Below, piece after piece: positions 2,187-5,269 of a DNA stretch of 5,496 nucleotides (position 1 is the stretch's first letter; each line of letters begins with the position of its first letter). The stretch is from positions 1 to 5,496 of the forward strand of contig JAFVDC010000089.1 in NCBI GenBank assembly GCA_017478685.1. Reading direction: 5' to 3'. The position numbers and the translations under genes were made by a program. The notes below the pieces were generated by a model. It was not told the DNA's origin, ran no database searches, and was given only the letters and a program-made list of their open reading frames with translations. Source of the stretch: Bacteroidales bacterium. GTDB lineage: Bacteria > Bacteroidota > Bacteroidia > Bacteroidales > UBA932.

Positions 2187-3629
2187 CTAGTTGTTAGGTG
2201 CATCCAGCCGCAGTTCCGGGTGGCGGGCTGAAGTCCGGCGGAAGATGACAGCAACGGCAAGGGCGGCTATGCAAAGGCCGAAGAACATGAGCTCCACGGC
2301 GACGGGACCGCCGGCATCGGCCGAATGCGCACCAAGGATATTCCCGGCTATCATCTTGAAGCTGAGAAGCCCAAGGTTCTGCACCCAGTAGATGAGGGCG
2401 AATGTGGTTCCAAGCACCTTGTCCGGGACAATCTTGGGAACGGAGGGCCACAGGGCGGCGGGAACAAGGGAGTAGCCGAAGCCCAGGAACACCATGGCAA
2501 GGTAGCCCCAGAACGGGACTCCGGCAGGTGCGAAGGCAAGGATTGCATGGGCCACAAGCGACAGCACGGCGCCAAGGACCATCCAGCGGGTGCCCTTGCC
2601 GGCCTTGTCCACCATCATGCCGAAAAGCGGCGCGAAGATGACCGTGGAGAAAGGCAGCATGGATACTATCCAGCCTGCCGCCTGCGCGGGAATATCAAAA
2701 CGGGGCACCAGGATTGCTCCGGCAAATTTCTTGAAGGCTATGATGCTGCTGTAGAAAAGTACGCACAGTAGCCCCAGGAGCCAGAAATTCTTGTTGCCAA
2801 GCACACTGAGCACGTCCTTGAAACGGAAAGTGTCTTCGTCTTTCCCCTGATGTTCCTCCAGGGAAGAGGCTTCGGACCGGTACGCTCCTTCGGAGCTATC
2901 CCTCCCAGACAAGTCTGGGCCCCTCCCGTTCACGAAGCCACGGGCGGCTACGCCGTCCGAAGCCTCTTCCCTGGAGGATCTATCACTGCGGGCATCAAGT
3001 GCCACGAAAACGGCCCAGAGAATGAGACCGAGGGCCATCAGGCCCATGCCAACCAGGGCGGGACGGGCGGTTTCGGCCAGGGTGTATACGTGGCCGGGGA
3101 CCTGCTGCACAAGGCGGGGGCTGAGAACCAGCGCGAAGGCTGTCCCAAGGCGCGCTATGGCAAGCTGAAGGCCCATGGCAAGGGCCATCGGCCCTCCCTT
3201 GAACCATTTGGCGATTGAACGCGTGACGGCGGTTCCGGCAATCTCGGAGCCAAGGCCGAAGAGCATGGTGCCGGCATAGGCAAGTTTCAGGGCCGCGGAG
3301 CCGCCCTGAAGCACGGCCCATGTGACCATTCCGGCGCCAAGCACCATCATGCCCACAAACAGGGAGCCGCTGATGCGTACGCCCCACTTGTCAAGAAGGA
3401 TGCCGCCTATTACCAGGCCGCCGAAGACGCACAGCACGCTGTAGCCGCTGGTGTAAAGGCCGTAGCCCGCGGCGTCCCATCCAAGCTGAGTAAGGGAAGG
3501 GTTCTCAAACAGGTAGGAGATGCTGGAGAACATGTCGTCGAAGTAGTACGATGCGAACATCGGCACTACCAAACAGGCCAGCGCTATCCAAGCAGCCGGC
3601 CTGTAAAAGGATTTGCGGGCGGAAGCCAT
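2187..3629 (-). CDS. MFS transporter, MFSD1-like, with enlarged central linker
   Basis: This 480-aa polytopic inner-membrane protein has about 12 hydrophobic segments in two halves. Visible features: TM1 near 11-30; MFS motif A, GGILLDKWGVR (75-85), after TM2; a WFKGGPMALAMG segment (142-153) between TM4 and TM5; and a second-half conserved block AALWPSVPKIVP (391-402) followed by YWVQNLG (414-420). From memory, the WFKG..GLQLAIARLG and ALWP..VP..LGT..QNLGL patterns resemble the MFSD1 branch, whose lysosomal member has been linked to dipeptide transport; the substrate here is unknown. The linker between TM6 and TM7 (about 212-272) is long and rich in Ser, Arg, Gly, Asp and Glu. Residues 218-259 of it are encoded by a palindromic DNA element absent from the upstream paralog. 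The start is 1 nt after the stop of that paralog, so translation is probably coupled. The frame is intact. Confidence 0.93.
   Translation of the reverse strand: MASARKSFYRPAAWIALACLVVPMFASYYFDDMFSSISYLFENPSLTQLGWDAAGYGLYTSGYSVLCVFGGLVIGGILLDKWGVRISGSLFVGMMVLGAGMVTWAVLQGGSAALKLAYAGTMLFGLGSEIAGTAVTRSIAKWFKGGPMALAMGLQLAIARLGTAFALVLSPRLVQQVPGHVYTLAETARPALVGMGLMALGLILWAVFVALDARSDRSSREEASDGVAARGFVNGRGPDLSGRDSSEGAYRSEASSLEEHQGKDEDTFRFKDVLSVLGNKNFWLLGLLCVLFYSSIIAFKKFAGAILVPRFDIPAQAAGWIVSMLPFSTVIFAPLFGMMVDKAGKGTRWMVLGAVLSLVAHAILAFAPAGVPFWGYLAMVFLGFGYSLVPAALWPSVPKIVPDKVLGTTFALIYWVQNLGLLSFKMIAGNILGAHSADAGGPVAVELMFFGLCIAALAVAVIFRRTSARHPELRLDAPNN
2854..2978. repeat. 125-bp palindromic element inside an MFS gene, in frame
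   Basis: The arms 2854-2877 and 2955-2978 are perfect reverse complements over 24 bp, separated by a 77-bp loop. The loop itself contains GCTCC-TTC-GGAGC (2884-2896), CCCAGAC-AA-GTCTGGG (2904-2919), CCCGT/ACGGG (2925-2944) and GGCG-GCTA-CGCC (2943-2954). The central 7-bp hairpin sits close to the midpoint of the whole element. It lies within the coding sequence of the MFS transporter and encodes residues 218-259 without a stop. No T-run follows an arm, so it is not a typical intrinsic terminator. No convincing target-site duplication is seen at the edges. Interpretation as a MITE-like or REP-like insertion is inference; the symmetry is directly visible. Confidence 0.85.
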
Positions 3630-5177: not shown

Positions 5178-5269
5178 CGGCCACAAAAAACGTCATAAAC
5201 GTGGACGGAGCCGCCAAAATCTCCGGCCCGGCCACAAAAAACGCCATAAACGTGGACGGAGCCGGCAAA
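5178..5269. repeat. Two-copy 41-bp direct repeat, period 51 bp
   Basis: Copies at 5178-5218 and 5229-5269 match at 39 of 41 positions; the differences are 5193 T versus 5244 C and 5214 C versus 5265 G. Ten bases (5219-5228) lie between them. Each copy starts CGGCCACAAAAAACG and contains CATAAACGTGGACGGAGCCG. On the minus strand each contains two ACGTTT-like or GCGTTT-like hexamers 9 bp apart. The repeat lies just upstream of the ABC promoter and could be a regulator binding site or part of a dispersed intergenic repeat. Two copies without uniform spacers of CRISPR size rule against a CRISPR call. Confidence 0.85.

Follow-up and report, generated by a model that had tools for sequence, protein, structure and literature searches.

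A 125-bp palindrome that lies in frame within a transporter gene of a Bacteroidales bacterium probably belongs to a dispersed family of miniature foldback elements, in which a core of two hairpins (P2 and P3) and a pseudoknot is carried on a stem of about 26 bp. The best reading of the evidence is that these repeats are foldback elements compatible with coding sequence and form a new family, an analogue of the RPEs of Rickettsia. Matches in related genomes show a multicopy family that is concentrated in one family-level clade of Bacteroidales, a clade known here from metagenome-assembled genomes (MAGs), many of them from the rumen.

The window, i.e. the whole stretch of DNA that was analysed (5,496 nucleotides; contig JAFVDC010000089.1), carries on its minus strand dxs, an MFS gene and a second, paralogous MFS gene, and at its left end two tRNA genes found by a scan with Rfam 15. 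The tRNAs were the only Rfam matches in the window, with none to the element. The host gene and the parts of the element are:

2187..3629, minus strand: MFS transporter gene, 480 aa (Pfam MFS_1, PF07690), host of the element in its TM6-TM7 linker
2854..2978, no strand assigned: the complete palindrome, 125 bp, in frame, encoding residues 218-259
2854..2877, no strand assigned: left arm of stem P1, pairing conserved, sequence free
2955..2978, no strand assigned: right arm of stem P1, pairing conserved, sequence free
2878..2954, plus strand: conserved core in the orientation of model R1, here antisense to the MFS gene
2872-2961: covariance model match, 100 bits, the window copy being among the 45 sequences that built the model
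2884..2896, plus strand: hairpin P2, GCTCC-TTC-GGAGC, covarying
2904..2919, plus strand: hairpin P3, tip varying among copies
2925..2944, plus strand: pseudoknot stem S1, CCCGT (2925-2929) with ACGGG (2940-2944), 99.6% of cells paired
2936..2949, plus strand: pseudoknot stem S2, AGCC (2936-2939) with GGCT (2946-2949), 99.4% of cells paired, with compensatory changes

A sequence-only reading of this DNA had described perfect 24-bp inverted arms around a 77-bp loop, wholly within an open reading frame. This is confirmed: the arms are complementary at 24/24 positions and the MFS frame is intact. The runner-up among close-armed inverted repeats in the window reaches 14 nt at 93%. Folded as RNA, the 137-nt region of the element is 6.8 SD more stable than dinucleotide shuffles (0/200 shuffles as stable), and folded as DNA it gives a z of -7.1 against shuffled sequence. 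The same reading had equated the element almost exactly with the excess of the linker over that of the adjacent paralog. The element does encode residues 218-259 of the 480-residue frame, but the excess over the paralog is about 31 residues, not 42. An ortholog without the element (L004) is 38 residues shorter than the window protein (1326-nt match, or 442 aa). In an AlphaFold2 model of the MFS protein, which is of modest quality (mean pLDDT 60), residues 220-264 fall below pLDDT 50, as do several other stretches, and the low values at 220-264 are weakly suggestive of a disordered linker. Elsewhere in the window, at 5178-5269, two 41-bp copies that are 95% alike lie upstream of the rightmost ORF with their starts 51 bp apart, and a sequence similar to this repeat, CACAAAAACGTGCTCAAC, occurs inside RsmH of two relatives (G007 and G006; L244, L249).

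That the palindrome should recur elsewhere was expected of a mobile repeat, and many copies are present in related genomes, both in other genes and between genes. The 125-bp query matched 10/10 close relatives (the genomes of L001-L010) at E <= 1, with 4 to 17 matches each, a count that includes self-matches of the arms and fragments. With a 93-bp core query, 43/61 genomes of the genus matched at E <= 0.001. A covariance model of the core matched 35/119 genomes of the family, 4/198 of the order (query genome included) and 1/395 of the phylum, which is the query genome only; these scans scored few candidates per genome and weak matches may be missed. Two of the order-set matches (G098, G248) may lie inside or outside the family alike, and the limit of the clade is approximate. 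Among the candidates scored with the covariance model, capped at 34, G300 has at least 30 copies and G317 at least 33. The element had no match in phages or plasmids, and viral contigs gave no match to one exact 17-nt pattern from it. No description of this repeat was found in the literature covered by our search, which took in few subscription papers and no preprints.

A scan of the species genomes gave 80 orthologous MFS loci, from records titled as Bacteroidales or Bacteroidia MAGs or as uncultured, many of them named for rumen, reticulum or omasum. The element is present in the linker of 7/80 of these loci (L001-L003, L005-L008), in separate records, as well as in the window, and the frames of these seven orthologs extend uninterrupted for over 600 nt to either side. 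Remnants of the element were recognised by eye in the linkers of L009 and L054. An artefact of assembly, or chance, in metagenome-assembled genomes is an exceedingly improbable explanation. The relatives are MAGs or uncultured genomes, and one of them (G005) has two RibF genes and may be a mixed bin, but the recurrence of this insert at one site in these seven separate records plus the window, the intact ORFs, and covariation across 45 copies (see below) all argue against it.

The core has the window orientation in L001-L003 and L008, and is reversed between the arms in L005-L007. Between L001 and L005 the arms are identical (24/24 on each side), and the cores match at 76/77 positions only after reversal. 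In a tree built from the DNA of 26 MFS genes, the reversed L006 is the sister of the unreversed L002 (support 99/98), and the orientation has therefore switched at least twice. The window is the sister of L004 (support 100/98), its closest relative, which has 95% DNA identity outside the linker and is without the element. As more distant relatives bear it, L004 is most simply explained by a loss, and was rejected as an empty site for this reason. L008 has a near-identical core and is placed elsewhere in the tree, where the surrounding loci lack the element; its copy could be old, with losses elsewhere, or could stem from transfer or from a second insertion. Alignment between species shows the core flipped at three orthologous sites, namely MFS, DapF and pyrD-pyrF. 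Separately, in-frame palindromic repeats of other kinds occur in the same MFS and RibF linkers (L006, L007, L013, L017, L020, L079; L233-L241), encoding peptides such as VISSEAEKS, HSRLDRES, EMADQVGHD and VIPGLTGNP, and some of them begin with CGTC, as known CGTC-REPs do.

Of the parsed copies, 204 have 150 nt or more of sequence to either side. In 45 of these an open frame runs through the element and 150 nt beyond each side, some of these 45 frames being spurious, and there is none in the remaining 159/204. Hosts above curated cut-offs are RibF, RsmH, PBP1C, MurB and DapF, along with a UDP-glucose-dehydrogenase-like nucleotide sugar dehydrogenase (TIGR03026, above cut-off). A SpoU/RlmB-type methylase is above the cut-off in Pfam and below it in NCBIfam, and a PLP-dependent aminotransferase has NCBIfam matches below cut-offs. 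Two copies are hosted by TrmB, near or past the end of the matched domain. Further hosts by family models are TilS, DNA polymerase I (PolA), an EamA transporter and the window MFS protein. Differing in-frame repeats are also seen in the aminotransferase loop before KFIYVIPDF in most of nine relatives (L384-L392), and the two RibF genes of the G005 MAG (L232, L241) include one that is 91% like that of G007.

Orthologs lacking the element, which had been named as a sign of mobility, were found for MFS, RsmH, DapF and UDP-glucose dehydrogenase, although the nearest MFS case, L004, is most simply a loss. RsmH was read in nine genomes, with an intact core in one, a remnant in one, a short plain linker in three and other inserts in four. 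For DapF the plain form is seen in G008 and G010, seven others have the element or a variant, and G004 yielded none. For UDP-glucose dehydrogenase the element is in 1/20 sequences read, out of 29 matching genomes. Stop codons in the core leave 3.75 open frames of six, compared with 3.66 for its composition, and a special coding adaptation of the core was rejected on this basis. The three frames of the drawn strand are open a little more often than in shuffles (129, 152 and 149 of 179 vs 120), and those on the opposite strand are on average less open (106, 91 and 44 of 179 vs 98). With no special shortage of stops in the core across the six frames, the in-frame copies are probably what selection left.

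The core runs from the P2 hairpin through TATCCCTCC, the P3 hairpin with its variable tip and GGGCCCCTCCCGTTCAC to an H-type pseudoknot, and its parsed length is 53-113 nt (median 73). Covariation was assessed in an alignment of 45 copies (A2), for which 56 were first parsed, near-duplicates and doubtful parses were removed and three were added. Both pseudoknot stems covary, S1 (CCCGT/ACGGG) and S2 (AGCC/GGCT) being replaced by e.g. CCCTC/GAGGG, AGAC/GTCT and GGCC/GGCC. In A2, where the P2 pairs are badly aligned in some rows, 93.0% of 785 cells are paired, compared with 33.5-44.7% with slid partners. Doubly changed cells number 67, against 21.7 +/- 3.5 for 500 shuffles; with slid partners there are never more than 15. 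Two others of the set of five covariation measures are less striking: pairs changed on both sides (9 vs 6.3; 13/500 shuffles as high) and further pair types (20 vs 18.5; 156/500 shuffles as high). The fourth, closing pair of P3 is A-C in 20/45 rows. Conservation of the pseudoknot implies that a folded single strand, whether DNA or RNA, is under selection, and the folded core would most likely be the recognition signal for a mobilising enzyme. Two further features were seen around the core. The P3 tip holds a second palindrome (GTCATGCCCGGC..GACCGGGCATCTCC or similar) in L090, L100, L101, L106 and L165, giving nested repeats, and a conserved block with TTAACCTCCA precedes the intergenic copies L153, L155, L156, L159-L161, L166, L167 and L172.

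The stem is paired but free in sequence. A fuzzy pattern applied to the loci collected gave 210 copies, whose distinct arm pairs number 179; the parses were uncurated by hand, candidates with an arm score <9 were dropped, and some sites recur across several genomes. The arms have a median of 26 bp (range 10-43), with 4213 Watson-Crick pairs vs 400 mismatches over the 179 arm pairs; 44/179 are perfect over their parsed length, 35 of these being at least 20 bp. There is no arm sequence common to all copies, and the arm ends vary by subfamily and locus. Eighteen arm pairs occur more than once, some of them representing the same site in related genomes, and some copies within one genome have arms in common. 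At the pyrD-pyrF site of G317 and G332 the arms are 16/33 alike yet 28/28 and 26/26 paired within each, between flanks that match at 119/148 and 120/145 positions and around a reversed core (68/78). Upstream of a gene that is glycosidase-like by eye, the arms are 18/31 alike and 26/26 and 28/28 paired, with a core in the same orientation (81/84) and an identical P3, the arms having changed faster than this hairpin, a point against the foldback reading. In DapF of G003 and G001 they are 16/26 and 16/28 alike and 22/24 and 19/23 paired, and the core is reversed (61/72). Arms at orthologous sites can thus be seen in these alignments to drift while their pairing is kept.

Perfect inverted repeats and opposite orientations at the MFS, DapF and pyrF sites could also be produced by site-specific inversion, in which the arms would be the recombination sites of an invertase and the core would be switched on purpose, as in phase variation. 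Such a switch is very unlikely, as the copies do not have an arm sequence in common (179 different arm pairs); of the features of an invertible switch, both orientations at the same site are present and a common recombination sequence is absent.

A structured RNA with a function of its own (as a ribozyme, or as a regulatory or stability element) has more in its favour, and still seems unlikely. The family would then be mostly intergenic, with in-gene copies as strays and the stem kept by selection on the RNA. This would agree with the covariation of the pseudoknot, with the position of 11/23 copies examined no more than 40 bp from the 3' end of a long ORF (several at the same site in different genomes), and with the conservation of cores at orthologous intergenic sites. 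However, Rfam gave no relevant match, and on four loci other than the window there were two sub-threshold matches, neither of them on the element. The core is found in both orientations at orthologous sites, so that the transcribed strand is not fixed, and in-frame copies lie within many genes. The stem mismatches on the drawn strand (99 G-U, 142 A-C and 161 other) bear on both sides. RNA selection alone should favour G-U, and with no G-U excess in stems on the modelled strand it fits poorly there. The A-C excess, like the A-C closing pair of P3, corresponds to G-U pairs on the opposite strand and is a modest hint of a transcript, or of RNA selection, of that strand; it also hints at something beyond pure maintenance of the stem at the DNA level, which does not predict it.

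Alternatively, insertion itself could make the arms, each new copy inverting and duplicating neighbouring DNA so that the outer arms are local sequence copied backwards. In G317, L308 and L309 have near-identical cores and perfect arms that are alike over the inner ~13 bp only, and a long ORF upstream of L201 has its stop codon within the arm, as this would predict. The site of L309 is old, however, because G332 has the element there too, and arms can travel with the core, since L312, L320 and L321 of G317 have theirs in common. The aminotransferase gene has only one arm in G002 and G005 vs two in G003, but these one-arm forms may equally be deletions between short GAG repeats. In UDP-glucose dehydrogenase both arms are foreign to the ortholog without the insertion. 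Inverted target duplication at each insertion was demoted on these last two counts, and we consider it improbable.

Within the preferred reading of a dispersed foldback family, the direct signs of mobility come from one relative. In G300, near-identical copies lie within an element of ~170 bp whose ends read GATTATCCGCAAAATTACC. Its terminal inverted repeats (TIR) have 99 matches with no more than three mismatches, compared with 0 for the reversed pattern. A 9-bp flanking duplication is present at 8/9 or better in 11/18 elements vs 16.7% with swapped flanks, divided as 10/12 elements with the core and 1/6 without. This one subfamily appears to move as a MITE. There are also 69- and 82-bp G300 elements with the same ends and no core, which are ambiguous as a pre-insertion state because deletions between short repeats fit them too. 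No autonomous parent with the G300 ends was seen in 30 loci of the 99 TIR matches, several of which are at contig ends. A MITE of 389-401 bp in G300 (L286, L289, L290, L303) has the same terminal repeats and a different interior.

Shared terminal repeats were not recognised in the window subfamily. Among 162 copies outside the G300 set, direct repeats beside the arms match 5/5 in 1.9% vs 2.3% with swapped flanks, 6/7 or better in 4.3% vs 2.9% and 8/9 or better in 0.6% vs 0.4%, with a mean of 4.9 vs 4.5 matches of 9; target duplications in this set, to which the window copy belongs, are not clearly above the swapped control. Transposases of Y1/RAYT type (PF01797) gave 44 matches in the ten relatives (3-6 per genome), and the element is absent from the 12 of these loci that were examined, on which ground a RAYT/Y1 partner was rejected. 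The Y1 transposase-like genes at L111-L122 are mostly about 300-340 aa, and that of L111 has an N-terminal GADASSVTT repeat. The earlier suggestion of coding-compatible mobile repeats is therefore supported as regards the family, while direct signs of movement are confined to the subfamily of a single relative.

How such a family would arise can be outlined as follows. A transposase acting in trans would spread the copies, and those in genes would survive where a flexible linker had been hit in a stop-free frame. The arms would then template each other, through replication template switching or recombination between arms, and this mutual templating would keep the stem near perfect and turn the core around. 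Taken further, and tentatively, the repeats might represent a new class of mobile element, whose pseudoknotted tip is recognised as single-stranded DNA or RNA and whose arms copy each other, so that the stem is rewritten at each locus and the element fits into essential genes either way and flips repeatedly with the frame kept. For the coding-compatible foldback family itself, copies in polA, rsmH, dapF, murB and ribF of gut Bacteroidota would demonstrate that folded repeats insert into core proteins outside Rickettsia as well. Orthologous sites in several states (empty, sense, antisense and remnant) make spread, tolerance and arm correction testable, and the covarying core offers a definite starting point in the search for the enzyme responsible for moving such repeats.

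The best known case of in-frame palindromes is that of Rickettsia. RPEs are described as palindromic repeats of about 150 bp, many of them in frame in unrelated genes (PMC10969869, PMC3733652), with one end CGTC-tagged or having a common end sequence (PMC3733652). RPEs and the present element are both in-frame palindromes in conserved ORFs. Unlike RPEs, the element has a Bacteroidota host, a conserved pseudoknot core and a stem of free sequence, and it flips at orthologous sites. It also has no fixed CGTC end of RPE type, and the two are set apart by description rather than by sequence. As the tagged end is absent, we have not filed the element under RPE.

CGTC-tagged REPs have been reported in Bacteroidetes, and intragenic REPs in several species, in PMC3733652, so that the phylum is not without palindromic repeats. 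The sequence-only reading had known of no equivalent in Bacteroidota; this stands for the present family, of which we found no description, but not for palindromic repeats of the CGTC type. Repeats beginning CGTCATTCCCGGC occur in the same linkers of this clade and, by eye, look like CGTC-REPs. According to the same source, REPs are 20-40 bp with a fixed tag, and are often downstream of genes (PMC3733652). The element resembles REP/RAYT systems in being palindromic, dispersed and in part intragenic, and the ten relatives also have Y1 transposases, but at 125 bp it is larger than GTAG and CGTC REPs and is without a fixed tag or GTAG end. Bacterial MITEs include ERIC, Correia/NEMIS and RUP, which are named in PMC10969869 and PMC3733652. 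Like them the element is a short non-coding foldback, with terminal repeats and ~9-bp target duplications in its G300 form; the difference is that in the element it is the tip that is conserved, not the ends.

Template switching is reported to perfect stems by arm-to-arm copying and to invert spacers (PMC8794818, PMC8604942, PMC6649704). The hairpins it produces, and the coding palindromes of Nematomorpha mitochondria, share perfect stems and spacer inversion with the element. As described there, these cases concern RNA, yeast and mitochondrial genes, whereas the element is a dispersed bacterial repeat with a common core. A process that both perfects stems and inverts spacers would nonetheless fit the two facts that mark this family, its near-perfect stem and its turning core.
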